Of a DNA stretch of 64,000 nt, positions 12,170 to 47,055 are shown in pieces. Within the stretch, counting starts at the first letter, position 1; every line of letters begins with the position of its first letter. The notes beneath the pieces are model-generated. The model did no database searches and was not told the DNA's origin. It saw only the letters and a list, made by a program, of their open reading frames with translations. Source of the DNA: Closterium sp. NIES-65 (lineage: Eukaryota; Streptophyta; Zygnematophyceae; Desmidiales; Closteriaceae); contig CANXME010002317.1 of assembly GCA_948144175.1 (NCBI GenBank), positions 1,302,001 to 1,366,000 on the forward strand. Reading direction: 5' to 3'. Both the position numbers and the translations under genes were made by a program.

Positions 12170-12372
12170 GTGCACTTCTGGTACGTGGCTGCTCACACAC
12201 TGATTGGTTTGGCTCTGCATACATCACACATACTCGCTCGCTTGCACCCTTCCAAGCTGACTTTTGAGTCGACCCAAAAGTCAAGACTCAAGAGTGCACT
12301 TCTGGTATGTACATACTGATTAGTTTGGCTCTGCATACATCACATATACTCGCTCGCTTGCACCCTTCCATA
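12170..12372 (+). repeat. Direct duplication with palindrome at its junction
   Basis: The segment from gtgcacttctgg (about 12168) to cgcttgcacccttcca is repeated from 12293. Between the copies, at 12262-12279, lies TTTTGAGTCGACCCAAAA, an 18-bp near-palindrome, followed by a partial repeat of it. The copies differ by a few substitutions and a short deletion. Confidence 0.8.
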
Positions 12373-12694
12373 CACACCCCTTGTATTATACAACATATTC
12401 GCACCACTGTGATCTTTCAATCACACTCCCCCCCCCCCCCCCCTCTACATTCATGCACTACCATCATATTCACATCATCCTGATCTCTCTATGCACTACC
12501 ATCCCATGTACTGCTCTCCCGCCATCACACACCCTTTCTCTGTGTGTCTGTGTGTGCATGTGCGATCCGCAAACACCCCGCCTGCTCGCCTTCATCTCTC
12601 AATGCAACCATCGTGTTTCCTCCCGGCCTTATCTCTTCGTGTTTTTGTGATCTTCCCCGCAGCTCCCTCGCCTGCTCGCCTCTGCATCTCTCAA

Positions 12695-12764
12695 TGCAAC
12701 CATCGTCGCGCCTCCTGCTGCTGACGAGCTCTTCTTTGTCAGGCGCCTCATTCAGGTGATTCCT
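12695..12764 (+). CDS. Possible small exon of the 9.4-16.5 kb gene
   Basis: The frame ATIVAPPAADELFFVRRLIQ runs to CAG|gtgatt. The upstream pyrimidine stretch (ctctgcatctctcaatgcaacc) could supply an acceptor. An imperfect copy of the leading part lies at 12585-12615. Included only as a candidate; no family match is claimed. Confidence 0.2.
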
Positions 12765-13231
12765 CAGGTGACTCAGGTGATTCCAGTGGTGACTGAGGTA
12801 ATTCTTTACATGACTCAGGTGATTTTTCAGACAGGGTAATCCATAAAGTTCTCAATTCTGCCCCCCCCCCTTATGGTCCCCATTCCCCTTCCCTCCATCT
12901 ACGTTCCCCCGCACCCTACCGTTCACAGCCCTACTCTAACCCCCCTTCCCCCAGCCCACCCAGCAGCCCTAAGGGCACCTTAGCCCCTCCCTCCCACCTC
13001 CGCTCCTCCTTCCTCCAACGCAATCGCATGTCCCTTGTTGTCCTCCTCCCCATGGCCCCCATCCCCACTCCCCCTCCCCTCGTCCCCCTTTCCCCAGCCC
13101 ACCCTGCACCACTGCAGGCACCTGAGGCGCTCAGTGTGGTCCCATCTCCGCTCTTCCCTCCGCAGTTCTTTTGTCCCTTCTCCTCCTCCCTATCTCTCTC
13201 ACCTCCCCAGCCCACCCAGCAGCACTGTGTG

Positions 13232-13452
13232 CGCCTTAGCCCCTCAGTGTCATTCCATCGCCCCTCAGTGTCATTCCATCTCCCCTCAGTGTCATTCCAT
13301 CTCCCCTCAGTGTCATTCCATCTCCCCTCAGTGTCATTCCATCTCCCCTCAGTGTCATTCCATCTCCCCTCAGTGTCATTCCATCTCCCCTCAGTGTCAT
13401 TCCATCGCCCCTCAGTGTCATTCCATCTCCCCTCAGTGTCATTCCATCTCCC
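13232..13452 (+). repeat. 22-bp minisatellite, about 10 units
   Basis: The unit cctcagtgtcattccatctc+cc is repeated with rare T/G changes. It sits between larger diverged copies of a cccagcccacccagcagcactg block (about 12950, 13090, 13207, 13535 and 13690), so the whole 12.9-13.75 kb stretch is a nest of tandem duplications in a probable intron. Confidence 0.9.
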
Positions 13453-13789
13453 CGCCCACTTCCTACTCTCAGCCTCATCGCATGTCTTGCCCCCTGTTCA
13501 CCTCCCTGCCTCTCTCGCCTCCCCCTCCACCAGCCCACCCAGCAGCACTGCGGCCGTCTGAGCCCCTCAATGTAGACCCAACCCATATCCGCTCCTCCTT
13601 CCTCCTCGAACCTTCCACCCCACATCCATGCCTTTCTCGTGTCATTAACCATATTCTATTCCTCCCCCCTCCCCCTCCCTTCCCCCAGCCCACCCAGCAG
13701 CACTGCGGCCGTCTGAGCCCCTCAGTGTGGACCCACCTTCGATCCTCCTTCCTCCTCCACCCTTCCTCTAACCACCTGCCCCTGCTTCA

Positions 13790-14110
13790 ACCTGATTGGT
13801 CGCTGCGGCCGGCAGTGGGCGGCACATACCAGGACAAACGCAGCCACCCGGACAGTAGTGAAAAGGAGGATGACAGTAATGGTATTGGAGAGGAGAGTGG
13901 GGGGAGGGATAGGGTGGAAGGAGAGGGAGAGGAAGGGCAAGAGGGGAGTGTGAAGGGAGTGAGGGAGGAGGGGAAGGTGGTGGTGGTGGCGATGCCTCGT
14001 GGCGTCCAGATGGCGGAGTTTGATTGGCTCGTGGGTCTGCTGAGGCAGCAGTTTGGGGAGAGCAACGTCACTGTGGTGAAGAGGCTCAGATGGAAGCAAG
14101 GTACTGAGGG
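13790..14110 (+). CDS. Candidate internal exon, acidic linker plus conserved-looking block
   Basis: The open frame includes PDWSLRPAVGGTYQDKRS, an acidic Glu/Gly linker, then VVVVAMPRGVQMAEFDWLVG and LLRQQFGESNVTVVKR, which looks like a folded domain strand-helix unit; in GT61 enzymes a similar block precedes the active-site part. Donor candidate at AAG|gtactg near 14100. The linkage to neighbouring exons is inferred from strand and order only. Confidence 0.35.
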
Positions 14111-14716
14111 GTGATGAGGGGTGATGAGGGGTGATGAGGGGTGATGAGGAGTGATGAAGGGTCATCTGGTGTGCTGTATGGGGTGTTAGGGGGAAATGGA
14201 TATACCTCCTGCCATGCCCTCACTCCCTCATGCCACCACTCACCTCTCCTATCTTTCCCTTTTGCCCCCTTCCGTTTTCCCCCCCTTCTTTTCCCCCATC
14301 AGCACGCACACTCCTCCCCCGCACTTCCCTCCTCGTCTCCCTCCCCCTACCCTCCCTCCTCCCCCTCCTCATATACTCTCGCCCCAACTCCTCCCTCCTC
14401 CTCCTCCAACCCCCAACTGGTCTCTCACTCTCTCACTCTCTCCCCTCCTCCTCCTCCTCGTCCTCCCCTGCTCACTCAAAGGATGATTCCTTGCCTGCCC
14501 AGCCGCTTCTCTCCAACCCCTTGCCCGACCCGTTCCTTTCGTCTTCTTCCATCATCCAATCCCTGAGTGCCACGTGTCACCTGCACGTCGTCTCTGTGCC
14601 GTCCGAGCGGCTGAATTTCAAACCTCTGCCGAAGCTGTGGCTCGTCACCGAGCCTGAGGCTCGGGAGGATGGGGAAATGGATCTAGGAGATTCCCAAGGA
14701 GGAGGATCGGCAGTAG

Positions 14717-16486
14717 GTGCGGAGGGGGGGGGGGTTGGGGAAGGACGCTGTTGGAGATGCCGATGAGAGGAGGGAAAATGGTGATGAGAATAGTGATGAT
14801 GCTGATTGGGGAGAGGAAGCGGAGGAAGAGAGGGAAGAAGAGACCAAGTCTATGCAGGTACAAGGGAAGCGTGAAGAAGCGGAGGAGGAGAGAGGAGAGA
14901 AAGAGGAGGATGTGGGAGGGATCCGGATTACCTGGAGCAGAGAGGACCTGGGAGAGGCTGTATCTGAGGCATGCCTTCACCTGGGCTTGGATTGTCTTCG
15001 GCTTGGAAGCAGAGGAGCAGCAGAAGAGCGAGTGAGTGAAGCAGAGAGGAAGAAAAGGGAGAGGCTGGAGAAGCGATTGCGGAGGCGGGAGGCTGAGGCC
15101 TGGAAGGTTCCTGGAAGCTGGCTGCGGCGCCGGCGCGATGTGCGGGTGTTTGAGCGGTGGCTTGAGTGCATCAGCCGCGAGGGAAACTGGGTGTATAACC
15201 CAACTCCGAGGGTTTTACCCTGGGAATATCCCGGGTTCATGAACTTATGCGATCACAGGCAAGCGGATGAGGGAGTGGGGGTGTCCGGTATAAAAGCGGA
15301 TGAGATTGTAAGGAGGGGCGGGAGCGAGGAGGAGTGGACAGTAAGAGAATCGCTCAAGTACGAATGGAGAACTCCACCTGGCAAATGCCCATTGGGCGGC
15401 TTAAAACCTTTTGACGGAGCTGCGTTTTGCAAGCGGGCAAGGGAGGAGAGAGGGACTTTTAACATTGTGTTTCTCGGGGATTCCCTGACCTTCCAAATGG
15501 CTGGGAGTTTCTTGAACGGTCTGCTTCGGCACGTCGCCAAGCCTGCGTCCTGGGCTGTGGACGAATTTGAACCTAAGCAGTGCGTGGACTGGCTCCTTGG
15601 GAGAGGAGGGGCAGAATCAGGAGGAGGAGGGGTGAGTGAGGATGGTTCCAGGAAGCCGCGCCGTGCTGCTCGCTGGAGGAATTTAAGAAGTAGGGATGGT
15701 AGTACTCGTGCTATTACAGGAGCTGCTAATATCGGGGATGAAGAGGTGGCGGAAGGAGAAGAGGAAGGAGAGGAGGAAGAGGGGGAGGAGGGGGATCGGG
15801 GTTCCGCTCCCGTGGTGGTGACACCACATCCGTTCTGCAAGGTCTATGTGTTTCACGAGAATGTGTGTCCGGGGGTAAAAATTCATGTGATTCGCAACGA
15901 CCACCTTTATATCCAGGACCCTGATTTAGCCAGCCCCGGTGACGGCAGCAGCACCACCAGCAGCAGCAACGGGAGTGCGACAGGTGGCAGCGTGCCATTT
16001 GATCACATGCCGTGGCACTTGTATGACGGTTTGGTGAGTGCTGATGTGGTGGTAGTTAACCGAGGCGCACATTATGTCGGCGGGAGGGATTTTGAGCTCT
16101 CGGTGCGGGCTGCCATGAGGCTGCTTCGCAGGAAGCTTCCTCGCGCCCTTCTTGTCTACAGGAATTCGCCGCCCGGCCATGTCAACTGCTCATCATACGA
16201 CCGGCCAATCAAAATTCGGCAGGATCCGGCGACGTTGCCGTTCCACTGGGATACGTTTTCGTCGCAAAATGATATTGCGAGGGAGATAGCGGAGGAGGTG
16301 AAAGCAGTGTACATGGATGTTGATACAATGACGGCGCTTAGACCAGATGGCCATAAGGGGTATGTGAAGGAGAGGGGGATAACGGATTGTCTTCATTATT
16401 GTACACCGGGTCCTGTTGATACGTGGGTTGAGATTCTAGGAAACATTATAGCTCATGGAGTGTTTAATGAAGGCTTTGAAAAGTAA
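14717..16486 (+). CDS. TBL/PMR5-type PC-esterase domain protein (terminal exon)
   Basis: 589 codons to TAA at 16484-16486. After an acidic coiled stretch (residues 1-75) comes a PMR5N-like region (CISREGNWVYNP ... WRTPPGKCPLGGLKPFD) and the PC-esterase domain: GDS at residues 254-256 (FLGDSLTFQ) and the C-terminal DxxH at 557-560 (DCLHYCTPG..DTW). These are the nucleophile and Asp-His signatures of TRICHOME-BIREFRINGENCE-LIKE proteins, which O-acetylate cell-wall polysaccharides in the Golgi. Ser/Gly/Glu inserts near residues 300-425 are unusual. Upstream (about 14540-14715) a different frame reads LSATCHLHVVSVPSERLNFK and on to KPLPKLWLVTEPE; a G-run at 14725-14740 may hide a one-base shift joining them, so the Met used here need not be the real start. 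Confidence 0.8.
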   Translation: MRRGGGLGKDAVGDADERRENGDENSDDADWGEEAEEEREEETKSMQVQGKREEAEEERGEKEEDVGGIRITWSREDLGEAVSEACLHLGLDCLRLGSRGAAEERVSEAERKKRERLEKRLRRREAEAWKVPGSWLRRRRDVRVFERWLECISREGNWVYNPTPRVLPWEYPGFMNLCDHRQADEGVGVSGIKADEIVRRGGSEEEWTVRESLKYEWRTPPGKCPLGGLKPFDGAAFCKRAREERGTFNIVFLGDSLTFQMAGSFLNGLLRHVAKPASWAVDEFEPKQCVDWLLGRGGAESGGGGVSEDGSRKPRRAARWRNLRSRDGSTRAITGAANIGDEEVAEGEEEGEEEEGEEGDRGSAPVVVTPHPFCKVYVFHENVCPGVKIHVIRNDHLYIQDPDLASPGDGSSTTSSSNGSATGGSVPFDHMPWHLYDGLVSADVVVVNRGAHYVGGRDFELSVRAAMRLLRRKLPRALLVYRNSPPGHVNCSSYDRPIKIRQDPATLPFHWDTFSSQNDIAREIAEEVKAVYMDVDTMTALRPDGHKGYVKERGITDCLHYCTPGPVDTWVEILGNIIAHGVFNEGFEK

Positions 16487-17161
16487 GAAGCATATTGTTG
16501 TGATGTGACATTTCATTCTGGTCAGTCTCAATATTAAGCTAGCTAAGTTTAAAACGAAACGGTGCTTTTTAATCCGAGGCCATCCGACTCCGTGGTCCGC
16601 ATTCAAGGAACGAACACGTTACGCCAGATCGTCGTGTCGAGGTCGTTCCATTCCTGTGCCGTCTTGGTCGCAACCGCGTGTTGCTTGTACACGTACCTCC
16701 CTCAATCGTCCTGAGCGTTGCATCAGGTTATGGGACTGTTGCAGAAACTGCGTCTAAACACGCCTTCCCGGAGATTCTTCATTTCATCCTTAGCCGTTTT
16801 CAACCATTGCTGGGTTGGCTGGTTGGTGGGCCTCGAGAAGAGACTACCATACCATCGTAGTGTCAGCAGTGCACATCACACAGTTACGCATTCCCCTGAA
16901 AGTGGTAACGATGACGAGCGGACCATGACCAGAGGAACGCCAAAACGTATGTAAACTCCGCGTTTCGCGAGAATATCGAATCCAGCACTCAACGTGCACT
17001 GTGCAAATGCTTCGCACGGCGCAACCCACGCTCAGAATAGGGTGAATTCGTCGTGCAAGCGCTTTTTCCTTTCTTCCCGCTTCCCGGCGTTACTACTTCC
17101 GGCCGTCAAGCCTCTCATCTTCTGCATTTCCAACCGTCAAATTTCCAAACGGCCCGTCCAT
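16487..17161. other. Intergenic DNA, right arm of inverted duplication begins
   Basis: No gene seen. From about 16970 it mirrors the left arm at 8400-8600 with many differences (for example gaatccagcactcaacgtgc against the complement of 8555-8580). Only patchy similarity is visible nearer to the esterase gene. Confidence 0.4.
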
Positions 17162-17395
17162 TTCAGGAGTCTTCAGTTAGTAGACTTATCTCCTGTTGAA
17201 ATTAGCTGGTTTCGGACTGCAGCAAGAGTCTACGAAGGATCTACTAAAATGAAAAAAGCGTTGGAAGTCGTTAGCAAAGGTCTTTTAGTCAGAACGCCAG
17301 ACACATAGGCCCAGATGTCGCGTGCGAACGCGTTTCGGCCAGCAAAGGCCTTCATCAGGCCTTCCTCAAAGCGCTAGCTTCAGGAGTCTTCAGTT
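17162..17395. mobile_element. About 200-bp insertion flanked by 17-bp direct repeats
   Basis: TTCAGGAGTCTTCAGTT occurs at 17162-17178 and again at 17379-17395. The DNA between is absent from the matching place of the inverted partner arm near 8330-8390, so it looks like an insertion with a target duplication. On the minus strand it contains a hammerhead-like motif. The long target duplication and ribozyme suggest a truncated Penelope-like element or a related hammerhead-bearing retroelement. Confidence 0.5.
17310..17367 (-). ncRNA. Hammerhead-ribozyme-like motif, probably degenerate
   Basis: The minus strand reads CTGATGA, then a hairpin AGGCC-loop-GGCC (stem II), then GAAAC, then a possible stem III CGCG-loop-CGCG followed by ACATC. 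CUGAUGA and GAAA are the conserved hammerhead core. The base expected to be U before the cleavage position is A here and stem I pairing is poor, so activity is doubtful. Confidence 0.45.
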
Positions 17396-18830
17396 GTTCG
17401 ACTCATTTCCACTGCCTGTCGTCGCATCCGCCGTCGCCGCTCGCTCTTCCCGTCACGCCCGCAACCTTCGTTGTTGGCGTCGCATCCTCCATCGCCGTGC
17501 GTTCTCCCCACCAAGCCCGCGGCTTCCGCCATGCCCGCAGCTTCCCCCTACGCTAGAGATTTCCGCGCGACGGAAAATAAATTCGTTGCGGGCGTTCTCT
17601 CCGATCCCCCCATCACCATGCTTCGCACAGCGCATTCACCGCCGAGGGGACTCGTTACTGGTGAGGAGGGTGCGGGGAGTGAGGGGGATGAGGGGGGCGA
17701 GGGGGGTGCGGGGGATGAGGGGGGTGAGGGGGGTGCGGGGAGTGGTGGGGGTGAGGGGGGGTGAGAGGGTGAGGGCAATGAAGGCCCTGCTTGGTCCAAT
17801 GTTACATTGACGAAGCAAGATCAAGCTGGGATGGGAACGACACTGCAGTGCTGGACCTAAGTTGTTGCTCACGTCGCCATCCCCTGTGTCATCGCTCTCA
17901 GCCCACCTTTCCCTGTTTCATCATTTTTCTGTTCCACCATTCCCTCTTCCATCGTCCTTATGTCGACCCTGTCTCCCTGCCGTGTTTCTTTCTGTGCTAA
18001 GACACGAAAGACACTCAAGCTCTTTTTCTCACCGTCCGTTGTGCTGTGCCTCCCACCCCTGTCCTCCCCGTTGTCACCATTCCCTGTTCCTTCATCCTTG
18101 GTGTCAACCCTGTCTCCTTGCAGTGCTTCTCTGGGCGCTGCAACTTGCCACACTGCTTCGGCCCGCTGCTGCTGTTACAAGTATGTCCTCGTTCGTTACT
18201 ACAAGCAGATGCGGTGTCTGTTAGGGGCCTATGCTCTTCAAGTTCTGCCACTGTTTCAATACAAGACGACTGCTCTGGTCGGTTCTTTTGTGCTGGATCT
18301 GCTCCCTCTCTTCATTTCTTGATTCCGCCCGTACTCACTCTGCCTTCCCTTTTCCTCTCACTCTCCTCGCACCTGCCTCACCAACCTACTTTTGCCTCTT
18401 GCTACACCCACCTCAACCTCACCAAATCCCCCACTTCCCCTTTTTCTTGCACCCGTCTCACCTTTGCCCCCACCCACCTGCCTTATGAGTCGACTAAATA
18501 ACCAACCCACCTTTTTCTCTTGCAGCGCCCATCTCCCCCTCACCTACCCCACTGTCCCTTGCTTGAACCCGTCTCTCACCCCTACTACCATGCTGGAGCA
18601 TCGCCCCCACCAGCATCGTGCTTTCAGCGCTGGAGCATCGACCCCACCAGCATCGTGCTTTCAGCGCTGGAGCATCGCCCCCACCAGCATCGTGCTTTCT
18701 CTACCCTCTCACCTGCCGTCCCCTTTGCCCCATGCTCTGTCTCTCGCCTTGCCCTTGCACCCTTTCTCTCGCCTTGCCCCTTGCCCCCTTTCTCTCGTCA
18801 ACCTCTATCCCACCTCCCACCACCCCCACC
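17396..18830. other. Repeat-rich, no confident gene
   Basis: 17430-17560 completes the inverted duplication arm (matches 8140-8340 inverted). 17660-17770 is a G-rich gaggggggtgcgggg repeat. 17870-18180 contains two diverged copies of a block ending in ccctgtctcc..tgc, and 18590-18700 has three copies of a ggagcatcgcccccaccagcatcg unit. These look like intron duplications of the gene ending at 20436, whose 5' exons I cannot place. Confidence 0.4.
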
Positions 18831-18956
18831 AGTGCACTACTCGTCGCTGCGCTCGAAAATCGCCCCCACCAGCGTGGTGCTTTCAATCCCTCAATAAGTA
18901 TCCCCCCATTGCTTCTTGCACCTCTGTCTCCCGTGCCCCTGCCTTTTCACCACCAG

Positions 18957-20063
18957 CGCACTACTCGTCGCTGCGGTGGAGAATCGCTCCCACCAGCGTG
19001 GTGCCAGCCACCACAGGCACCTTCGCCCTCACTGTTGACACCCCAGACAGGTACAGTGGGTAGGCTGTAGCTGTGCTAGTGTGCTCTGAGTCGACTAGAA
19101 ACCCACCAGCGTGGTGCCAGCCAGCCACCACAGGCATCTTCGCTCTCACTGTTAACACGCCAGACAGGTGCGTAAGGAAGAGGAGACAGTACGGTCCGTG
19201 CTCAAGCTCAGGTGTGCTTTGAGTCGACTGGACACCCACCAGCGTGATGCCAGCCAGCCACCACAGGCACATTCGCTCTCACTGTTGACACGCATGGCAT
19301 ACAATCAGTGCTCCCCCTTTTCTTTCGGTTTCCTCATTACTCATTGCTGTTTCCTCTTTCCACTTTCCTCGCTTTCCATTCCTGTTTCCTCCTTCCTCCT
19401 TTCCCATGCCCCCCTGCCAGCTCGCCATCCTCTCAGCCTCACTCCATCGCCTACACTCTCATCTCATTGCACACTCACACTGAGAGCCCTACTCTCTACT
19501 TTCCTTCGTCTTCCATTCCATCCTTTTTTTCTCCCTTGTCTCTCTGCCAGCCCACCATCCTCTCAGCCCCAGTCCATCGCCTACAGTCTCACAGCACGCA
19601 CTCAGAGCTCTGCTCTCTACAGTGTCGTTCTCTACAAGAACGTACCTCTAGGTGGTGAAAGCTCCTCCTCCTCCTCCTCCTCCTCCTCCTCCTCCTCCTC
19701 CTCCTCCTCCTCCTCCTCCTCCTCCTCCTCCGAAGCAGCAGCATTTCTCCCACAAGTGGAGCCCACAAAAGGAGGCAGGAGAGGAGGAGGAAGCAGGGGA
19801 GGAGACAAGGGCAAAGGGACAGGGAGTGACAGCAACAGAGGTGGCAACAGGCCATCTCTGGTCAAGGACCCAGCTGCAATAGTGGATTCTCTTCGAACAC
19901 GCCTTAAGCTCAAACCCAAGGGCAATGCCAAGCCATCCCCTAAGCCCAGCGCTGTACCAAGGCGTGAAGGTTTAAAGGCAGGTGGAGGTGGGGTTGTGAG
20001 TGGGGCTGGTGTGGTGGAAGCAGGAGGAATGGAGGATGTTGCAGAAATAGATAATTCTGGTGC

Positions 20064-20135
<72 letters not shown>

Positions 20136-20436
20136 GAAGAGTAGTGATGTGGTGAGGTTATTTCTGCCCTGCCCGTGGCAGTCTGTGAATGATGGGACTG
20201 GTGAGTGGACCTGTTCGGGCAGCCTTGACCTTTCCACAATCTCCTCCAACACAGGCGATGCAGCAGGATCAGGGGAAGCTTCCCCCAGCGCTGATGCAGC
20301 AGCTTGGGGAGAAATATTGGAAGACCCTACTGTAGCTCTGTTTGGAGTGTACATGCAGGCGGGTTTGTGCCAGGGTCAGCCTGATATATTTGGTGTGTTA
20401 CTGAAAGATGCTACACCAGGCGAGGGTGGTGGCTGA
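18957..20436 (+). CDS. Unrecognised Ser-rich protein, last two exons
   Basis: The last exon 19587-20436 joins in phase to a donor at 19050 (GACAG|gtacag). The joint reads FALTVDTPD-S-LTARTQSSALYSVVLYKNVPLGG. The upstream exon probably starts at 18997 or 18957. The C-terminal part reads VRLFLPCPWQSVNDGTGEWT, then ILEDPTVALFGVYMQAGLC and ends GVLLKDATPGEGGG. Two long serine runs interrupt it: one written with TCC (19661-19731), one with AGC (20068-20133). I do not recognise the family. Exon-like copies occur at 18833-18890, 19106-19166, 19239-19290 and 19418-19500. Upstream exons are not identified. Confidence 0.45.
18997..19290 (+). repeat. Three direct copies of an exon, palindrome cores between them
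   Basis: The block cccaccagcgtggtgccagc ... ctgttgacacc recurs at about 18990, 19106 and 19239. GAGTCGACTA (19088-19097) separates copies 1 and 2, and GAGTCGACTG (19221-19230) separates 2 and 3. Only the first keeps the exact phase to the downstream exon; the later copies carry a 4-base insertion (ccag). Confidence 0.75.
19661..19731 (+). repeat. (TCC)n repeat coding for serine
   Basis: About 23 TCC triplets in the frame of the Ser-rich protein. The antisense Arg/Glu-rich frames are shadows. Confidence 0.9.
20068..20133 (+). repeat. (AGC)n repeat coding for serine
   Basis: About 22 AGC triplets in the same frame as the TCC run 340 bp upstream, again giving polyserine. Confidence 0.9.
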
Positions 20437-20661
20437 GAAATTTTTGTGGATCATGTTGCTGGTAGTGTACAATAGTGTACCATATTATGTCATTGTGCCT
20501 TTACAGTGATCAGTGTGGACTGCTAACTATGTCTTGTATTAAAATGCAGGCATAATGTGGGCTGTAGTTGTGCAATTCCCGCGCTCAGAAAAGCATTTAC
20601 TGAAAGACTTCAACCTGTTATAGCGTTGTTTTCCTATATCCCATTTAGAGTTTCCTTTGGT

Positions 20662-20892: not shown

Positions 20893-21529
20893 ACTGCCAC
20901 GTTTGCACTCAGCTGTGTGTGCGGGGCTGCCAAGTACCCCAGGTTCATTCGAATTCTTCGAATTGAGTTTCGAACCAAACCAAAATTCACCCCACCCTCA
21001 CAGAAAACACTCTCATTGTGATTCCTTCTTTCTCGCGAACCCCTAGGCTCCACTCCACGCCACATCTAACCTAATTGCGATGCCTGCGCTGATTGCGCTA
21101 ATTGCGCTGATTGGATTTGCTTCTGCCGAATCACTCTCGCCAATGCCCCGACAGGTTTCCATTCACTAGTACTTTCGCAGAAGCCCAGATTAAGTCCACT
21201 CAAGTAGCCGACGGGAAAGGAGAGATAGTTTTTTTGTCGCGACTGATGAAAGGAACACCGTCTCATGCGGAAAGACCGAAGGGCTGTTGCATCGCAGATA
21301 GTCGTTAACGTTACGACCCGTACGTTGCGTTAGCGCACGGGTTAACTTTTCAGTACTGGCTGACAGATTTGAGCGTTGTCGCGTCGGTGATTCTCGTCGT
21401 CAAAGTTCCGTTGCGTTAGGGCACTGGTTAACTTTCCAGTGCTGACTGACAGATTGTTAGGTCGTCGCATCACATATTCTCGCCGCTAACGTTACCCAGA
21501 CGTTGCGCGAACGCAACATTAACGTTACC
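20893..21529. other. Intergenic, no gene seen
   Basis: Short repeats such as gttgcgt-tagcgcac and aacgttac variants appear from 21300; nothing recognisable otherwise. Confidence 0.4.
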
Positions 21530-22545
21530 GTTAGCAACGTCAGCACCCTAGGTCACGGCAAGTTCAGTGGAGAATGTTCAGTGCTAGCTGGCAGTGTCGA
21601 GGGTTGCTCGTCCTGAGGCGCCTCAAATTCAGACTTTCAGTAGCTGACGGAGTCGAGGAGGTGCCAGCGTGCGTATGCGATCGTCTGTCAGCTCTAGTGA
21701 ATTGAAGTTCAGTGGGGATTCTTCAATAGCTGGCAGTGTCGAGGGTTGCTAGTGCTGCTGAGGCGCCTCAAAGTCAGACTTTCAGTAGCTGACGGAGTCA
21801 AGGGGTGCCAGCGTGCGTTTTTTTAGTCGACTCAAAAACTGTTCAGTGCTAGCTGACAGAGTCGAAAGTTCCCAGCGGGAGTATGCGATCGTCTGTTACA
21901 CCTAGTAACGTCACCCTGAGGTCACGGTAAGTTCAGTGGGGATTCTTCGGTAGCTGACAGATTCGAGGGTTGATAGTTTCGAGGCGCCTCAAAGCCAGAC
22001 CTTTAAGTAGCTGACAAAGTCGAGGGGTGCCAGCGTGTGTATGCAATCGTCTGTTAGACCTTGTAACGTCACCCTGAGGTCACAGTAAGTTCAGCGGGGA
22101 TTTCCAGTACTAGCTGGCAGATTCAGGGTTGCAAGCGCTGAGGCACCTCACAGTCAGACTTTCAATAACTGACTAGCGTGTGTATGCGATCGTCTGTTAG
22201 ACCTAGTAACGCCACCCTGAGGTCACAGTAAGTTCAGCGGGGATTTCCAGTACTAGCTGGCAGATTCAGGGTTGCAAGCGCTGAGGCACCTCACAGTCAG
22301 ACTTTCAATAACTGACTAGCGTGTGTATGCGATCGTCTGTTAGACCTTGTAACGCCACCCTGAGGTCACAGTAAGTTCAGCGGGGATTTCCAGTACTAGC
22401 TGGCAGATTCAGGGTTGCAAGCGAGTGTACGCGATCGCCAGTTGGCCTTAGTAACGCCACTCTAAGATTGCGGAAGTTTAGTGCAGATTCTCCAGTGGCT
22501 GACAGAGTCGAGAGTTTCAAGCGTGTGTATGCGATCGTCTGTCAT
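21530..22545 (+). repeat. Diverged tandem array, about 142-bp to 160-bp units
   Basis: The anchor gtatgcgatcgtctgt recurs near 21675, 21881, 22039, 22186, 22328 and 22527, followed in most units by taacg-caccctgaggtcac and agttcag-gggat. Units before 22300 also hold GAGGCGCCTC or the decayed form GAGGCACCTC (21615, 21760, 21981, 22140, 22281); a TAGTCGACTCA palindrome lies at 21824. The last units (22060-22420) are nearly identical to each other, the outer ones more diverged. Confidence 0.85.
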
Positions 22546-23470: not shown

Positions 23471-23482
23471 GTCCCAACCCCA

Positions 23483-23509: not shown

Positions 23510-24184
23510 CAAGTTGCAATAAGCAAGCTTTTCACAATTCTATCTTGTTCTTTCTACAAACACGTTTCCGCTACGGTGGCACTATGCCTTTCTAGCATTT
23601 ACTACCTTTTGAACTTGCACGGAAATTTTATATAAACGGTGGTACCAGTACACATTGGCCGAATTCTGGTTGAGGGGTGACAAAACAGATTTGCATGGTC
23701 GGCTGGGGAAATTTATATCCAAAGACACGCGCGAAAGGAAAAATATACTCACAAAAGAGGTAAAACATGTACATGTACACGTGTAGTCCATGCGGTATTT
23801 CTCAGTGAATGAAAGACTCTGGTGGTAATTCTGCAGCTATGTGGCCACTGGCCACATGCACAGGCAGACAAGACAAAGGTGCTGGTTTGACTTTTGAGAA
23901 GAGTGCAAGAAGTGCCTGCCTGCTTATGTCGCAGCAGTGGTGCCACATGCTGGGAGTAGCAGTGGCAGCAGTGGGGGGGTGGGATGGCAAGGAGGACTGG
24001 GATGGGAGGAACAACAGACACACAGCCTCCTGCCCTGCTTGCTTACACCTTGCACACCCATTCCTTTCATGAGTGAAAAAAGGACAGCTCTTTTGAGGCG
24101 CCTCAAAAGAAGATCATAGCTCTCTCTCAGCTTGTGAGTTTTCTTCCAGCAGCAGACAACTCTCCTTGACCAGCCAATCCAAAC
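23510..24184. other. Intergenic, one perfect palindrome
   Basis: No gene seen. A 22-bp perfect palindrome centred on GAGGCGCCTC lies at 24089-24110 (CTTTTGAGGCGCCTCAAAAG plus one pair each side). Here I see no duplicated flanks. Confidence 0.5.
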
Positions 24185-24480
24185 TACCGTCATCGCCCGG
24201 ATATAAGACAGTGTCGAATTGAAGACATGTGGTGTCGTTAAAACAGGTGTGTCTTATAGATGGGTGTTCCTGATTATAAGACAACTGTCGGTGTGTACAA
24301 GTTAAGCCAGTATAGGGATTAGGGGCAATCTTATGACTAGGGGGAATCTTCTAAACGGTTTTTTGTCCATTTATAAGAATTATAAGACACCCTAAACTGT
24401 CCCAATTACAAGACACAGCAAGCTTTTTTTCTAATGTATAAGATAAGACATATATGTCTTCTATCCGGGCGATGACGGTA
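24185..24480. mobile_element. MITE-like element 1 (296 bp) with terminal inverted repeats
   Basis: The left end TACCGTCATCGCCCGGATA and its exact complement at 24462-24480 form 19-bp TIRs, extendable to about 26 bp with one mismatch. TA at both outer ends could be the target duplication (Tc1/mariner-like). The interior is rich in ttataagacac-type motifs and codes for nothing. Confidence 0.75.
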
Positions 24481-25823: not shown

Positions 25824-26402
25824 TTATATAGGTACGTATCGTTTCACCACGTGTCGGCTCGCGGTAAGCGCAGCAGCCGCTATACCTCCAACAGCCCCCG
25901 CGATCGCCGCTGTCCTAGGTCCCGCCGCGGCCTTATAAAGCGCTCCGGTGCCCAGCCCCGCTACGACCGCATTCCACGGATCGTCCACGCCGCCGCGGTA
26001 ATGATACGCAGCTCCTTCGATCCCGGAGTATAATAGCCCGACGATTCCCAGCGCGTTTCCCGCAGATCTTCCCCGCGATCCTGCGGCGTTGAGAACCCTA
26101 TTCGCGCGCAGCTTGGCAGAATCCCCCGCCTCCCACGAGCGGAAGCCCTCCGCCGTACCGCGGATTCCGCCGAAGAGCGCTCCGCCGAGGTACCCGCACC
26201 CGGTGAAGAAAGTGAGATTATCGCCGAAGCTTCGTCGCTGCACGGCCGCTTCCTCGGTAAAGAGAAACTCGGGCGCGTCGGGAAGGCGATAGATCCCCTG
26301 GATGGATCGCGCGTCGAGATTGGGGTACAGATCGGCGTACGGGTTGTACAGGTGCCCGGCCGATGGGGTTGCGGCGTCGTTGTCGTCGTGTAACGTGGCC
26401 AT
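25824..26402 (-). CDS. TIM23: Mitochondrial inner-membrane translocase subunit Tim23
   Basis: 192 aa, single exon, Met at 26402. Channel subunit of the TIM23 complex that imports presequence proteins into the matrix. The plant pattern is plain: YNPYADLYPNLDARSIQGIY, then RLPDAPEFLFTEEAAVQRRS, then the Tim17/22/23 (PRAT) domain with GCGYLGGALFGGIRGTAEGF, LRANRVLNAAG, GLLYSGIEGA, VVAGLGTGALYKAA and the end HVVKRYVPI. Four hydrophobic segments fit the family (about residues 68-85, 115-130, 143-160, 163-180). Length is normal for plant Tim23 (about 190 aa). It is intronless, unlike mEF-G1 next door, with which it is divergently paired over 1.25 kb. Confidence 0.95.
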   Translation of the reverse strand: MATLHDDNDAATPSAGHLYNPYADLYPNLDARSIQGIYRLPDAPEFLFTEEAAVQRRSFGDNLTFFTGCGYLGGALFGGIRGTAEGFRSWEAGDSAKLRANRVLNAAGSRGRSAGNALGIVGLLYSGIEGAAYHYRGGVDDPWNAVVAGLGTGALYKAAAGPRTAAIAGAVGGIAAAALTASRHVVKRYVPI

Positions 26403-27655
26403 CGAGCGCCACGTGGCAGATCTAGCGGCGGAGAGCCAGAAACGCGAACAGGCGGTGACACAGAAAGCTAACTGAGTATCTAGGAAAGCTAATCAACGAA
26501 GGAACAGCTTGGGAGGAGTGGAATGAGGTGAAATCAGTGGCACGCGGGTGGAGAGTTCGGGAGGTTAGGGTGGAGGGTGGTTTGAGTGGTTGGTGTAGGA
26601 GGAGGTAGCACTTGTGTTTACACGTGAAAGGAAGGGTCCTGACGATTTCTCAAGGTTGTTTCCTGCTCGGTTCAACTTCTGAACTGCTAAACGTCAAGAA
26701 AAACCGGCTTCTCTTCTTGACAGGTACGGTAAACGTCCTTGACAGGACGTTTTGCGGCTGCGAACTCAAAACGTCAACAAACTTGCGCTCGGGTTTCCGT
26801 TTGAGTTTTCGAAGCAATTGAAACGCGTCATTCGAGATACGCCTTCACTCCAGACCCAACAGCCTCCCAGTTCCTTGGAGGGTCCAGCTGTCAGCCGCAC
26901 AAAGAAGAGTGAGGTAGCCCCACTTCGCTCCCCTTCTCCCTCAAAACCCCTGTCAAACCTCATGGTAGCCCCTTCGTACCGAACCTCCTTCCGAGGCCGG
27001 AACCTCTTGTGGGAATTTCTGAAGGATGATTCAAGAGGAGTCATCGCGTCCAAATTGCAGATTTAGTACCAGCCTTTTTGAAACAAGGTTCTTGTTCAAT
27101 CTCGTAAATCAGGTTCTTAGTCAAACAGCGAGCGAATCAACCTGGAGAAAAGGAGACAGCCATAACTTTTCAAATCTTAAAAACTCATGTCTGAAAAGAA
27201 TGTGAAAAAAACGCGACCCTGCATTCCTTTGCGACTCTTACCCCTCTCATTCGGCTTCCCACAGTGCTGTGTCCGTTGCTTGTGATCGCACTTTTCTCAG
27301 GATACAGCCTCGCTGTTCCGCAACGCGCGGCCGCGTTGGAGGCCGACTGGATCGCCAGGGTTTCCACGTGCTGTCCGTCCTCCACCCACGCTACTGCATT
27401 TGCGAATCTAGACCGCCCATTTCTCTTCCAGCGCACCACCACCGTCCGATCACTCCGCCTCTTCCTGATCATTCACCTCGTAACGCGTCGCTCGCCTTCC
27501 GATCGATCGCCGTCTTTGTCATTCGCGAAAGTACCGACACCAAGCGATCATTTTTGCGGCGTAACCCAGCTCCCCTCGCACTGATCGCGACTCGCGACAT
27601 CACGCTCGTCGGTTAGAATTCTCGGCAAGATTAGCCTCTCGCCTGACACGTCACC
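26403..27655. other. Shared upstream region of TIM23 and mEF-G1
   Basis: 1253 bp between two divergent starts of mitochondrial protein genes. A locally repeated cttgaca-gg motif occurs at 26715-26750. No other gene is convincing; small open frames here are random. Confidence 0.5.
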
Positions 27656-41509
<13,854 letters not shown>

Positions 41510-41535
41510 TATTTGCTGTCCATATATGGTGTATT

Positions 41536-41627
41536 GAGGAACTCACTATAAAGCATTGGCAGCATATTACCATACTTCGCATGCACGGTACAGCTACGGC
41601 TGGTGTAGGAGCAGAAAAGAGGAGGGT
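41536..41627 (+). repeat. Decayed copy of mEF-G1 last exon, downstream of the stop
   Basis: gaactcactataaagcattgg through ggagcagaaaagaggaggg matches exon 21 (41420-41505) with many changes, including stops. It shows that copying also occurred past the gene end. Confidence 0.75.
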
Positions 41628-42785
41628 TGTGCTGCAACTACAGCAATCAAGCATTGGCCCCGCTGAATTAATCAGGGTTAAAAAATCACTCGAATCTGAA
41701 AAATCAGGGGACAGGAGCTCAAATCAAAGGTCTGATTCGTCAGATTAACGTCAGATTAATCAAACTATTCAGTCGAGAGTGTCAGCCCTGGGCGGATGGA
41801 AGGAGTGAGGCAGTGAAACACTTCATCCCTACGTGGTCAGGTAGCGTAATGATCCAGAAAAAAACTTTTTGTTACTAAATAAAGAGACTAAACTATGTAT
41901 TTTGGAATGCATTTTATCTTGAAGATCGTATCGCTCCATAACCTTACAGGGTGGTTCTAAAAACGGTGAGAAGCGATACAGCTCGGTCTAGCGACATCAC
42001 GAAACCCACAATCCCCAAGATAAGGCAATCCACTCACCATAACGACCCCCGCCGCACCACCCGCCGCTCAACCCGCCGCTCCACTCGCGTAGCTCGTCAC
42101 CTCACCGGGCCCTCCACGCTCCACGCGCCCCGCTTTCCACCGCAATCGAGACGCTTATTGCGCATTCCTGTCCCTAATCGTCGCCATCGTTTCGCTGAGT
42201 ACTCACCGTGCCGGAGGGAAAAACAGACGAATCTTTTAGGACGCGGTAAAAGTAGAGAATCGATCGCCTCAAGATCATTTTTTGGCGCGGTTGTAAACGG
42301 TTGTGTACTTTCCGTATGCAAAACGCAAGGTTTTAGTGCGGTGACAGGATCGATCTCCCCCCGATCGAGCACTTTTACCGCGTCCTTAGTCGACTCGGAA
42401 ACAGTTTCGTTTTTTTTTTTTTTTTTTTTTTCTTTTTGTTGCATCGACTCGAAATAGTTTCGTTCGGTGCTATCCACCGAGGCGGAGGGGAAGAACAGCG
42501 TGGGGGCGAGGAAAGGCGACGCGAGGCGAGGAGAGGAGAGGAGAGGAGAGGAGGGATAGCAGGGAACTGGGAGAAGAGAGAGGGAGCCTGCCGCTCAGTT
42601 AAATAGGCGCATGCACAGCTCTGCTCGTTTCGCGTGCTGCTAGGCTCATTCACAGCTCTGCTCGTCGTTTTTTTTTCTGCACGTTTCTGCATGCTGCTGA
42701 ATCGCAATCGCGGCAATCGCGGAAATCGCGGAATTCGCGGAAGTCGCGGCAATCGCGGAAATCGCGGAAATCGCAGAAGGTCGGG
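41628..42785. other. Intergenic; poly-T run and G/A-rich repeats
   Basis: No gene seen. Poly-T at 42411-42430; gaggcgaggagaggagag repeats at 42520-42553; cgcggaaatcgcgg-type repeat at 42700-42775 just upstream of the next start. Confidence 0.4.
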
Positions 42786-45700
42786 ATGATTCGCGCGCTG
42801 CGCATGGTGCGCGACGCGTGGGTGTTCTTCACGGGGAAGGGAGATACGGAGCTGGCGCGACAGACGAAGAGATTGCAATTCGAAGCCGCTAAGGTGAGGT
42901 GAGGCTTCTCAAAGCAGTACGAGAGGCACCTGGTGCTGTAAAAAGCGGTGAGGATTGGTCGTGTGGGATGCACGCGTGGGTGCTCCTCACGGGGAAGGGG
43001 GATTCAGAGCTGGCGCGACAGACAAAGAGATTGCAATTCGAAGCCGCTAAGGCGAGACGCACACAGTAGAGGCATCTGGTCCAGTACGAAGCGGTGAGGG
43101 CCGGTCGTGTGGGATGCACGCGTGGGTGTATTTCACGAAAAAGGGGGAGTCGGAGCCGCTAGGGCGAGCGAGACACGCACTCTTATGCGCACGCGCACGA
43201 GAGGCGACTGGTTCAGCAGTGGTACTGAGAGCAGCATCCGCACAGCACACGAGTGCAAAGTGAAGCCCTCAAGGTGAGACTTGTCAAAAGAGGTGACTTT
43301 TGAGTCGACTCAAAAGTCACGAGATGCGTCTGGTTCAGCAGTGGTACTGAGAGCGGCATCCGCACAGCACAGCACACGAGTGCGTGCAAAGTGAAGCCCC
43401 TAAGGTGAGACTGGTCTAAAGTAGCGTGCTGGATCGCAAGGGGCATGAGGAATCACATGAGGAATCATGTGGTTCCGCCGGACTTGAAGAATTCTTAAAA
43501 GGGCCGGCATGTCTCTGAGTGGCTGCAGTGAGAAGCGACGCGGCGTGTCGGAGAGAATTAGTTTCAGGCAAAATAAGTCTTGGGCGGAATTGGTGTCGGG
43601 CAAAATAGGTGTCGGGCAGAATAGGTGTCGGACAGAATAGGTGTCGGACAGAATAGGTGTCGGACAGAATAGGTGTCGGACAGAATAGGTGTCGGACAGA
43701 ATAGGTGTCGGACAGAATAGGTGTCGGGCAGAATAGGTGTCGGACAGAATAGGTGTCGGACAGAATAGGTGTCGGACAGAATAGGTGTCGGACAGAATAG
43801 GTGTCGGACAGAATAGGTGTCGGACAGAATAGGTGTCGGGCAGAATAGGTGTCGGACAGAATAGGTTTCGGGCAGAATAGGTGTCGGGCAGAATAGGTGT
43901 CGGACAGAATGTTCGTGAAACTGTGTTTCTCTTGGTTCCCTCCTCCTCTTCTCCCCTCGTCTCCCCTCATCTCCCCTCTTATCCCCTTCCAGCAGGTGGT
44001 GGAGGAGATGCAGCCGCTCGTTCGCTCTTGCTTCTCCTCCGTGTATGAAGATTTGTTTTGAAACGTCTCAAAAGCAAATCTTCTCTTGGTTCCCTCCTCC
44101 TCTACTCCCCTCGTCTCCCCTCTTCTCCCCTCGTCTCCCCTCTACTCCCCTCGTCTCCCCTCTTCTCCCCTTGTCTCCCCTCTTCTCCCCTTGTCTCCCC
44201 TCTACTCCCCTCGTCTCCCCTCTTCTCCCCTTCCAGCAGGTGGTAGAGGAGATGCAGCCGCTCGTTCTCTCTTCCTTCTCCTCCGTCCCTCTTCTCCGAT
44301 CTTATCCCCACTCTGCTCAGCTGAGGGCGCTGATAGTGGCACAGCAGCAGCAGGAGGAGACGGCATTGGAGCATGTGAGGCGAGTAGTGGGGGAGTGTTT
44401 GCTTGCTCACTCTGTTGGCACCGTCTCTCCTTCTGAGTCGACTCAAAAGCCGTCTCTCCTTCTGAGTCGACTCAAAAGCCGTCTCTCCTTCTGTTCTGAG
44501 TCGACTCAAAAGCCGTCTCTCCTCCCTCTGTTGCACGTGCCTGCGCCCCCATTTCCTCCTCAGCTGAGGGCGCTGCGGGTGGCACAGCAACAGGTGGTGG
44601 AGGAAACAGCATTGGAGCATGTGAGGCGAGTGGTGGGGGAGATGCAGCAGCTGAAGCAGCAGCTCGATGGCATGGTGAGGGGTGGGAGCTTGGCGAGGGG
44701 TGGGGGGATGGTGAGGATGGTGAGGGATGGGAGTATGGTGCATAGTGAAAGGTGGGATGGTGGTATCATAGGACAATCGATGACACTCAGATTGCAGGGT
44801 TGTCTGGTAACACGTTACACACCCGCAAGACTTGTAACACTCACACATCGTTTTTGAGGCGCCTCAAAAAGGTTGCCTCATAAGACAACGGTCTCTCTGT
44901 AACACACGCGCGCCATGTCACGCCTTGCCTCACACTCGCCTTGCATCACACTCGCCTTGTTTCACACTCGCCTTGTTTCACAATCGCCTTGTTTCACAAT
45001 CGCCTTGTTTCACACTCGCCTTGCATCACACTCGCCTTGTTTCACACTCGCCTTGTTTCACACTCGCCTTGTTTCACAATCGCCTTGTTTCACACTCGCC
45101 TTGCATCACACTCGCCTTGTTTCACACTCGCCTTGTTTCACACTCGCCTTGTTTCACAATCGCCTTGTTTCACACTCGCCTTGTTTCACACTCGCCTTGT
45201 TTCACACACGCCAGACAACCATGTCTACCGCGACCACTACCACGTCAGGTGAAACGGGGTGACTTTTAGGGTCTACTGAAAAGGCGCGTCAAAAAGGTTG
45301 CCTCATAAGACAAGGGTCTCTCTGTAACACACGCGCGCCATGTCACGCCTTGTGTAGCAAGTTGATTTTTTAGTCGACTCAAAATCGGCCATTTCACGCC
45401 TTGCCTCACACTCGCCTTGCCTCACACTCGCCTTGCCTCACACTCGCCTTGTTTCACACACGCCGGAAAACTATGTCTCCCATGACCATTACCACGTCGC
45501 ATGAAATACCACGTGAAAAGAGGGTCTCGAAAACTATGTCTACCTACCACGGCCAATACCACGTCACGTGAAATGCCATGGTAACGAGGTGACTTTTGAG
45601 TCGACTCGAAAGTCATCACGTGAAATGCCACGTGAAAAGAGGGTGTTTTTGAGACGTCTCGAAAACTATGTCTACCTACCACAACCATTACCACGTCACG

Positions 45701-47055
45701 TGAAGTAAGGCTGTTTTTGAGACGTCTCACGTCTTATTCCACGTGGTTAAACTATGTCCACCCTCACTGCCCTCTCTGTGGCTGCCCTCTCTTGTCGACC
45801 AATGACTGCTGTCCACGTGGCAGGAAGAAGCAGCAAAGGCTCTGGCAGAGAGTGTAGCGGAGCAGGCTAAAGCGAGGATGCAGCAAGAGGAGGAGGAGGA
45901 TGACCGGCGGCTGCTGCAGACTATGGACCAAACTGCACTCGAACGGCTGCTGGGGTATGGGAGAGAGGAGACGGGAGCGAGTGGGAGGCAGGAAAAGGAC
46001 GGCGGTGGGAGTGGCAAGTGATTGATGAATTAAGAGGAGGATGAAGGAGGAGGAGGATGGAGGAGGACGACGACAGGCGGCTGCTGCAGACTATGGACCA
46101 AACCGCACTCGAACGGCTGCTGGGGTATGGGAGAGAGGAGACGGGAGCGAGTGGGAGGCAGGAAAAGGACGGCGGTGGGAGTGGCAAGTGATTGATGAAT
46201 TAACAGGAGGATGAAGGAGGAGGAGGATGGAGGAGGAGGATGACAGGCGGCTGCTGCAGACTATGGACCAAACCGCACTGGAACGGCTGCTGGGGTATGG
46301 GAGAGAGGAGAGGGGAGTGGGCGGGAGGCAGGAAAAGGTTGGTGGTGGGAGTGGCAAGTGATTCATGCAAGAGGATGAGGAGGATGGAAGAGGAGGAGGA
46401 GGATGACCGGCAGCTGCTGAAGACTATGGACCAAAGTGCACTGGAATGGCTGCTGGGGTATGGGAGGGAGGAGACGAGAATGAGTGGGAGGCAGGAGAGG
46501 GATGGTGGTGGGAGTGGCAAATGATAGGATGCAGCAGCTGGGAGAGGATGCAGCAGGAGGAGGAGGATGACCGGCGGCTGCTGCAGACTATGGACCAAAC
46601 TGCACTGGAACGGCTGCTGGGGTATGGGAGAGAGGAGACGAGGCAGGAAAAGAGTGGCGGTGGGAATGGCAAGTGATTCATGCAAGAGGATGAGGAGGAT
46701 GGAAGAGGAGGAGGAGGATGACAGGCGGCTGCTGCAGACTATGGACCAAAGTGCACTGGAACGGCTGCTGGGGTATGGGAGAGAGGAGACGGGAGCGAGT
46801 GGGAGGCAGGAAAAGGACGGTGATGGGAGTGGCAAGTGATCCATGCAGCAGGTGGGGAGAGGATGGAGGAGGAGGAGAATGATAGGCGGCTGGAGGATGG
46901 AGGAGAAGGAGCAGGAGGAGGAGGATGACTGGCGGCTGCTGAAGACTATGGATCAAAGTGCATTGGAACGGCTGCTGGGGTATGGGAGGGAGTTGTCGAA
47001 CGCAGACAGGTGGGCTGCGGAGGCCTTACGTCCATCAACTTGTATGGTGATTTAA
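42786..47055 (+). CDS. Candidate small coiled-coil protein, multi-exon
   Basis: Best-supported exons: 42786-42893 (MIRALRMVRDAWVFFTGKGD..LARQTKRLQFEAAK, donor AAG|gtgagg); 44571-44672 approximately (LRALRVAQQQVVEETALEHV, RRVVGEMQQLKQQLDGM); a small exon near 45218-45249 (DNHVYRDHYHVR); 45824-45958 approximately (EEAAKALAESVAEQAKARMQ, EEEEDDRRLLQTMDQTALER, LLGYGRE). A further exon near 43993-44050 (QVVEEMQPLVRSCFSSVYED) has a second copy at 44237. The last copy ends LLGYGRELSNADRWAAEALR and stops at 47055. The heptad-like Gln/Glu/Leu/Val pattern suggests coiled coil; the basic, aromatic N-terminus could be a mitochondrial signal. Family not recognised. Exon structure is uncertain because every exon has copies. 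Confidence 0.45.
42960..43430 (+). repeat. Decayed first-exon copies and a palindrome-centred duplication
   Basis: 42965-43052 and 43108-43160 repeat the exon 42786-42893. A separate block (gactggttcagcagtggtac ... gaagccc-taaggtgagac) occurs at 43206-43280 and 43328-43412; between them gtgacTTTTGAGTCGACTCAAAAgtcac (43293-43320) is a perfect 28-bp palindrome. Confidence 0.85.
43566..43908 (+). repeat. 16-bp minisatellite, about 21 units
   Basis: The unit ataggtgtcggacaga, sometimes ggtgtcgggcaga, is repeated with little change. The long minus-strand frame through it is a repeat artefact. Confidence 0.95.
43925..44300 (+). repeat. Direct duplication with palindrome at the junction
   Basis: Copy 1 (tctcttggttccctcctcct ... 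cttctcctccgtgtatgaag) ends near 44050 and copy 2 starts at 44082. Between, gaagatttgttttgaaACGTCTCAAAAgcaaatcttc forms an inverted repeat (44047-44084) whose arms extend into flanking sequence. Copy 2 is enlarged by a cgtctcccctcttctcccct array. Confidence 0.85.
44431..44514 (+). repeat. Three GAGTCGACTC units alternating with a short direct repeat
   Basis: GAGTCGACTC at 44435, 44464 and 44498, each followed by aaaagccgtctctcct and preceded by tctccttct. The tandem unit is therefore the palindrome plus a copied flank. Confidence 0.85.
44851..45385 (+). repeat. 16-bp array and palindromes between larger duplicates
   Basis: TTTTTGAGGCGCCTCAAAAA (44851-44870) is a perfect 20-bp palindrome. After it ggttgcctcataagacaa-g ... 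cgcgccatgtcacgcc runs to about 44930 and recurs at 45293-45355, again after a decayed palindrome (45264-45292). Between lies a 16-bp array (ttgtttcacactcgcc, about 18 units, 44930-45210). GATTTTTTAGTCGACTCAAAATC follows at 45364-45386. Confidence 0.85.
45387..45735 (+). repeat. Serial duplications separated by three palindromes
   Basis: The block aactatgtctacctaccac ... taccacgtcacgtgaa recurs several times. Palindromes separate copies: gacttttGAGTCGACTCgaaagtc at 45591-45613, TTTTTGAGACGTCTCGAAAA at 45646-45665, and TTTTTGAGACGTCTC at 45714-45728. Central bases differ (TCGA, then ACGT) in neighbouring sites. Confidence 0.85.
45895..46990 (+). repeat. Seven copies of one exon, about 170-bp units
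   Basis: gaggaggatgaccggcggct through aacggctgctggggtatggg recurs near 45893, 46060, 46235, 46395, 46558, 46712 and 46920. Each copy encodes DDRRLL(Q/K)TMDQ.ALERLLGYGRE. The first and last fit exons best. Inter-copy DNA also repeats (ggatgaggaggatggaagagg, gtggcaagtgatt-atg). Confidence 0.9.

Follow-up and report, generated by a model that had tools for sequence, protein, structure and literature searches.

The nuclear genome of Closterium sp. NIES-65 contains a short palindrome, the 18-mer TTTTGAGNCGNCTCAAAA (hereafter P), in which the arms TTTTGAG and CTCAAAA enclose a palindromic centre and which frequently stands between two direct copies of the neighbouring DNA. The analysis covered a stretch of 64,000 nucleotides of contig C2019, which is 2,683,981 bases long (the window), the 874-Mb assembly to which it belongs, and genomic pieces outside the window that carry L numbers (e.g., L017 and L061). 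By comparison of its copies and their relatives, P was found to be a discrete insert; direct copies were enriched beside it, a relative at one locus lacked both P and the second copy, and the centre was kept where the outer arms were lost. On balance, P is probably an insert of about 18-34 bp, palindromic and dispersed, which was laid down in the end-joining repair of staggered double-strand breaks, the fill-in of the overhangs duplicating the target.

Abundance of P and the direct copies beside it

The palindrome described in an earlier note on this DNA is real and widespread. A pattern search of the 874 Mb gave 24,964 exact copies, against 0 for the reversed control, and 47 sites with at most three mismatches to TTTTGAGNCGNCTCAAAA were found in the window, where 0.23 were expected; 25 of these 47 belong to one 32-bp minisatellite at 37026-37811. 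The core GAGNCGNCTC was present 42 times in exact form in the window (1.84 expected), three times with the non-palindromic centre CCGC. The arms of P with any four-base centre were found 30,327 times genome-wide (control 4), 82% of the centres having the form NCGN, and P with the centre TCGA accounted for 13,080 copies. In a hand count of 50 distinct places listed, from the first contigs only, the centre was TCGA at 26, ACGT at 14, GCGC at 10 and CCGG at none. Because CCGG was missing from the listed places, the centres look like a few subfamilies, and random tails were rejected as the source of P on the same count. Other centres among the places listed were AATT, which is palindromic, AATC, and forms resembling CpG decay such as TCAA or ACAT. 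The earlier proposal that the palindromic form is kept and not the sequence thus holds for the centre (TCGA, GCGC, ACGT and also AATT) but not for the arms, whose sequence is fixed. The distribution of P was uneven. Of 20 pieces of ten kb taken along C2019, 17 had no site at up to three mismatches, and among 26 ten-kb pieces P (at most two mismatches) occurred in 6 of 7 free of Copia vs 1 of 19 bearing Copia.

The flanks differ from site to site, as had been noted earlier, but the two flanks of one site are often alike. In the sites of the window and of L001-L024, with the 25-unit array left out, the score of flank-vs-flank alignment had a median of 109 for 47 P sites, compared with 21 for 391 random window positions. 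Tandem arrays were common in the examined sequence (377 of at least 2.6 copies) and inflate such tests, and therefore arrays were excluded from a stricter one, in which sites were merged into 42 clusters, redundant loci and loci fetched as paralogues were left out, and the copies on either side had to come within 15 bp of P, with a score of at least 24. Outside arrays, 23 of 37 P clusters had such tight copies vs 79 of 1,500 control positions matched by lying in the same stretches (Fisher P = 2e-19); at a score of 40 the figures were 17 of 37 vs 53 of 1,500, and with arrays included 25 of 42 clusters and 338 of 1,500 controls passed. The ten window clusters had been noticed through their duplications, and the test was repeated without them: 18 of 29 clusters passed with the window left out vs 86 of 1,500 controls, and 5 of 8 in the window alone. 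The other loci outside the window had been picked by exact P in the pattern search, not by duplications. In a looser test, only 3 of 201 other palindromes of at least 10 bp were flanked by copies, as were 86 of 600 random positions and 26 of 39 P sites. Duplication beside P is therefore frequent, not universal. A comparison with control positions of the kind that the earlier note had proposed thus came out in its favour for these clusters, and its statement that P marks junctions applies to about 60% of the clusters outside arrays, not to all.

Empty sites and the structure of the insert

More than half of the orthologous gene groups are duplicated in NIES-65 according to the genome paper (PMC10407611), and paralogues served for comparison. 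The most complete case is L017:2986 and its paralogue L071 on the same contig. The left flank and left copy in L017 (2909-2980) correspond to bases 1-67 of L071, and the right copy and right flank (3004-3075) to bases 41-110. The stretch A is present once between its flanks in L071, and twice in L017 with 23 bp holding P between the copies, so that X-A-Y in the relative stands against X-A-P-A-Y. The right half of this P ends at GACTCA on meeting the target letters CAGCG, and A is therefore counted as 27 to 32 bp; in this single case the join lies on up to 2 bp common to the target and the P consensus. L071 has a single A and no P. A direct copy of tens of base pairs that is single at the empty site, as a staggered break would leave it, was found at this one locus, and the enrichment agrees with it. 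The second case, L061:8213, lies in a repeat of about 400 bp, for which 33 other matches were listed, and is 20 bp net longer than four aligned relatives. All four are without P, and two of them hardly differ from one another. In one reading the insert is TGTTTTGAGACGTCTCAAAACA replacing AG, without duplication. As judged from these alignments, P is a discrete insert at both empty sites. Among paralogues of window positions 28500-46000 no clean empty site was found: L055 and L056 were without P, L055 being rich in tandem repeats, L057 had a decayed P, and L058-L059 had a P variant in 95-bp arrays. The paralogue of the L061 array, L066, was too diverged for a clean alignment.

The anatomy of the events was followed in 19 clean, hand-picked examples. 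Their copies measured 13-95 bp and their inserts 19-37 bp. The outer ends of the duplication carried no P-like sequence in 17 of the 19 (at most 11 of 18 letters matching); of the two exceptions, one (L061:357) has another P next to it and the other (L068) has its left end beyond the sampled piece. Six copy pairs were 100% identical (e.g., 60/60 at L061:5500 and 23/23 at L033:238) and the other pairs were diverged. Some P events thus look young, and identical and diverged pairs together suggest insertion over a long time.

Many TCGA sites extend partly or wholly beyond the 18-mer as AGGTGAC...GTCACCT, and ACAACCT is the extension at a few ACGT sites and in the L058 array. The 28-mer GTGAC-P-GTCAC has 1,013 genomic copies, and the longer arms therefore belong to the insert; the 28-bp arms at 43293, regarded earlier as extending into flanking sequence, are explained in this way. 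The GTGAC arm was found at 4,614 of the 26,160 arm positions of the 13,080 TCGA sites, and at about 2,588 of the 3,601 sites with a GTGAC arm it was present on one side only. Half-sites without the centre (GTGACTTTTGAGTCH) numbered 648 genome-wide vs 4,614 with it, and of 100 centre-less ones listed, 61 were the CpG-decay form TCA and 23 came from one array. In a local sample of both strands, 113 intact left half-sites were followed by a perfect right half in 78 cases and by one with one or two mismatches in 23 (101/113 in total). The outer arms are expendable and the central joint mostly is not.

Several readings of this structure were rejected. Covariation of the arms with the centre was not supported, since GAC...GTC accompanies TCGA (and one AATT), and GCGC and ACGT sites are usually without matching GCC or GTC arms. 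P does not appear to be part of a longer element, as 127 of 152 local half-sites were palindromic; inspected by eye, most of the remaining 25 were decayed P, half-units from the array at 35146, a coding repeat or chance. The folded strand of the 28-mer is a hairpin (-10.6 kcal/mol, z -5.4) in which the four-nucleotide centre is unpaired, so that a constraint on the hairpin loop was also discarded and the hairpin alone gives no explanation for self-complementary centres. An array of half-units GTGACTTTTGAGTCT with a 19-bp period at G000:C531:237079-237511 recalls the 15-bp half-unit array at window position 35146.

Possible origin of P and its relation to known systems

X-A-P-A-Y, with A single in the relative, is the structure expected when a staggered break is filled in and P serves as the filler. 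We infer the following course for how P is made and spreads, including the nicks, the fill-in, the end joining and the supply of P. The staggered break would arise from one nick in each strand, the two about 10-100 bp from each other; both overhangs would be filled in, by which A would be doubled with P in between; and the ends would then be sealed by end joining. Blunt or trimmed breaks would take P without duplication. As to the supply of P, we prefer that the two broken 3' ends each gain an identical short templated tail with a self-complementary NCGN' at its tip, and that these tails anneal and are filled in to give P; an RNA template for such tailing would contain CUCAAAAGUCACCU. Annealing of identical tails would account for a palindromic yet variable centre, for one-sided trimming of arms and for the rarity of half-palindromes. 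Capture of a random piece of a longer palindrome would often lose the centre, and a transposon would keep its ends and the length of its duplication; P shows the opposite of both. A more specific version, which we regard as rather unlikely, is a break-repair pathway of Closterium that caps both 3' ends with the same templated tail (approximately AGGTGACTTTTGAGNCGN), perhaps RNA-copied by a reverse transcriptase of telomerase-like or Penelope-like type. The self-complementary tips would anneal to join the ends, and staggered breaks and tandem duplications would thereby be recorded across the genome.

Several results weigh against staggered-break repair as the source of P. Tight duplication was missing at 14 of the 37 clusters outside arrays, and at both of the two clusters obtained from pieces sampled by position alone (0/2). 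Of 12 two-copy duplications in the window and in 20 pieces sampled by position, 9 had no visible P, and therefore fill-in duplication needs no P. Duplication and insert were seen together at only one empty site (L017/L071). Two-armed GTGAC sites were 2.5 times as many as independent loss of the arms predicts (1,013 seen, 407 predicted), a count that is inflated by tandem arrays. At 12 of the 113 local half-sites, from five loci, the right half stopped early, and some inserts (12262, 29877, L067 and L068) contained extra sequence beyond the palindrome. Nor was an enzyme, an RNA template or an intermediate with tails found.

A transposon-like origin is a serious rival, to which we would allow a minor but real chance. 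P could be an ultra-short non-autonomous transposon, i.e., a miniature inverted-repeat transposable element (MITE) reduced to its inverted repeats, which an unseen transposase or retrotransposon enzyme inserts with long and variable target-site duplications (TSDs). The high copy number, the few centre subfamilies, the empty sites and the flanking direct repeats would all fit, and the change from X-A-Y to X-A-P-A-Y formally equals a TSD. Cut-and-paste transposases, however, leave TSDs of fixed and short length. In some introner families TSDs are 3-9 bp (PMC9860276), whereas the duplications ranged from 13 to 95 bp in the picked events and were absent at L061:8213. The ends of P are also not constant, GTGAC being one-sided at about 2,588 and two-sided at 1,013 of the 13,080 TCGA sites; half-sites away from palindromes were rare, and no longer element with P ends was seen, although no whole-genome search for transposases was made. 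It is improbable that P came first, so that its hairpin stalled replication and slippage or breakage copied the neighbouring DNA. The P strand does fold, and the regularly spaced P sites indicate that units with P do multiply, but slippage predicts P beside both copies or in the unduplicated relative, while the outer ends were free of P-like sequence in 17 of the 19 picked events and L071 has neither P nor a second copy; moreover, the origin of 25,000 identical palindromes would be left unexplained. Of the three mechanisms proposed earlier, a tiny mobile palindrome or a nuclease with templated repair, or a mix of them, is therefore favoured over a template switch at a pre-existing palindrome, given the discrete insertion at two empty sites and the one relative without P and second copy.

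That P is a functional binding site or an ordinary part of minisatellites, with the duplications coincidental in a repeat-rich genome, is very unlikely. Tandem arrays are indeed common and P is concentrated in Copia-free stretches, but the enrichment persists outside arrays against matched positions, other palindromes do not share it, and P was inserted at empty sites. Palindromes are known library artefacts, and chimeric palindromes or unremoved adapters were also considered as a source of P. This explanation is hardly credible, because old P copies are decayed together with their flanking copies, the P at 24091 is also found in a second, 95-96% identical genomic copy, and the site at 34133 has a decayed P in common with its paralogue. 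According to the genome paper (PMC10407611), PacBio reads were assembled, and Arrow, linked reads and Pilon were used for correction.

Among known systems, the palindromic GC clusters of yeast mitochondrial DNA (mtDNA; GC42 etc.) resemble P in being short, dispersed, variable in presence or absence and treated as mobile (PMC4478555). As described there, they are mitochondrial units of 42 nt, GC-rich and flanked by AG or ACT repeats, whereas P is nuclear, has tens of thousands of copies and is accompanied by duplications of 13-95 bp. The hairpin elements of sponge mtDNA and the (A)n/(T)n palindromes of Fusarium mtDNA are likewise hairpin-forming inserts that differ between relatives (PMC2800124; PMC7218506), as are the double-hairpin elements of Allomyces mentioned in the same two papers; unlike P, all of these are organellar and of few copies, without long target duplication in the parts described. 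An organellar palindrome with a flanking repeat of 2-3 bp does not describe P, which lies in a nuclear, multi-megabase contig with Copia open reading frames (ORFs), Tim17 and esterase genes and has long flanking copies. MITEs and introners are, like P, high-copy inserts in genes, some with inverted repeats, but introners have TSDs of 3-9 bp in the families described (PMC9860276), and P has neither an interior nor fixed ends. No match to the 24-mer GACTTTTGAGTCGACTCAAAAGTC was found in viral contigs or in contigs of prokaryote genomes. The translated P array of L017 gave no protein match at E up to 10 among 7,986 candidates scored, and P-derived peptides were absent from nine homologues of the esterase of the window.

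Typical introns are longer than P by itself. The REP palindromes of bacteria, with their RAYT transposases, are, as P, palindromic, dispersed and tens of base pairs long; they are bacterial and are not known to be accompanied by long duplications. Tandem duplications at adjacent nicks in plants are reportedly the subject of a study by Schiml in 2016, going by its title, and PMC8355091 cites that study for plants. In mouse cells, breaks with 3' overhangs of 43-50 nt gave tandem duplications by fill-in and end joining (PMC8355091). Such fill-in of staggered breaks (CST/Pol alpha-primase with end joining; paired nicks in plants) is like the P events in giving direct duplications of similar size at offset nicks, and unlike them in leaving no fixed inserted sequence at the junction, as far as described there (PMC8355091). 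The fixed filler at fill-in duplications is the new part. The 18-mer TTTTGAGNCGNCTCAAAA was not found in the searched literature, the word stem 'palindrom' is absent from the NIES-65 genome paper as far as it was available (PMC10407611), and the accessible parts of the open-access literature held no nuclear counterpart of P, though subscription papers or preprints could contain one. No described mobile element or repair pathway that was found does quite what P does. If this reading is right, every one of some 25,000 exact copies, and of additional decayed ones, records an insertion in the past or descends from one, often with the duplicated overhang still readable. A unicellular zygnematophycean, a close algal relative of land plants, would then hold a natural record of staggered-break repair and of how tandem duplications, exon copies and minisatellites start. 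P would be one of the smallest nuclear mobile DNAs described, or the trace of a repair pathway with its own signature sequence.

P sites and other features of the window

Most sites at which the earlier note had seen direct copies, namely 12262, 29877, 34133, 35146-35223, 38368, 40737, 43298, 44431-44511, 45594 and 45647, were clearly flanked by them. In the event at 12168-12370, P (12262-12279, one mismatch) stands between copies at 12168-12254 and 12292-12370 (75/87 identical). The event at 29825-29937 has P at 29877-29894 with long extended arms and copies of 27/30. An old event at 34073-34255 has 56-bp copies at 98% and a decayed P near 34133, and the paralogue L057 also has the decayed P and the second copy. 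In the exon-like blocks repeated in tandem in both paralogues (34041-34691 and L057:510-1856), no more than one decayed P is present; a visible P is thus not always involved when exons are duplicated here. At 35065-35302, 78-bp copies (76/78) surround four half-units of 15-bp period and a full P at 35206-35223. Duplicated 99-bp exon-like copies at 38261-38529 (92/100) enclose a decayed P at 38368-38385, and a decayed event at 40573-40852 has 98-bp copies (82/98) and P at 40737-40754 with three mismatches, the left copy lying 66 bp away. The site 43298 is a perfect 28-bp palindrome (43293-43320) between copies of 88/104 at 43196-43421. A three-unit array (44431, 44460 and 44494) at 44306-44641 has copies at 44306-44395 and 44547-44641 (79/95) across it; the related exon copies on contig C332 (L055) are without P.

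At other sites the outcome was mixed. The P at 44056-44073, placed at 44047 in the earlier note, has long arms and copies of 97/109 within 43938-44286, of which one is 13 bp away and the right one starts 104 bp away. Three P sites lie in duplicated DNA at 45502-45732: 45594 (67/84), 45647 (37/40, inside the copies of 45594) and 45715 (13/14). The last had no clear copies (score 23, control median 21), and neither had the perfect P with the centre GCGC at 44852-44869 (score 17), contrary to what had been reported for both. The weaker site 33362 was not confirmed, its neighbour 33416 scoring 23 against the same control median. Two P remnants at 19088-19230, GAGTCGACTA (19088) and GAGTCGACTG (19221), each with one poor arm, lie by eye between repeated exon-like copies.

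Further P sites not listed earlier were a decayed event at 18380-18575 (P-like 18483-18500 with three mismatches, diverged copies of 61/81); four P-like sites (21611, 21756, 21820 and 21977, together spanning 21611-21990) with repeated copies around the cluster at 21524-22131; and a P at 45367-45384 (one mismatch) within 45145-45506, with 110-bp copies (93/110), the left one 112 bp away. The 22-bp palindrome TCTTTTGAGGCGCCTCAAAAGA at 24089-24110 (site 24091) has no flanking duplication, and the same P is present in the 95-96% identical copy on contig C752. TTTTGAGGCGCCTC recurs in every one of the 25 32-bp units that make up the minisatellite at 37026-37811. Multiplied A-P units form such arrays, with periods of 32 bp here, 57 bp at L017:1921 and 95 bp at L058.

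The P sites of the window lie between Copia-like retrotransposon ORFs at its two ends (211-5878 and 48291-61870). Of the ORFs scanned by Pfam, a PC-Esterase gene (14717-16486) and a Tim17-family gene (25824-26492) were recognized, the other six being without a match. An esterase-like ORF of the window matched a protein of Closterium sp. NIES-65 at 100% identity over 62% of the query. A minisatellite-like stretch at 43400-43966, whose ORFs repeat RHLFCPTPILPD, has no P inside. About 70 bp from the P at 24091 there is a 300-bp repeat (24180-24480) with dozens of copies of 95-99% identity listed genome-wide, and a repeat of about 150 bp at 42232-42391 has some 30 copies listed, with 86-100% identity.

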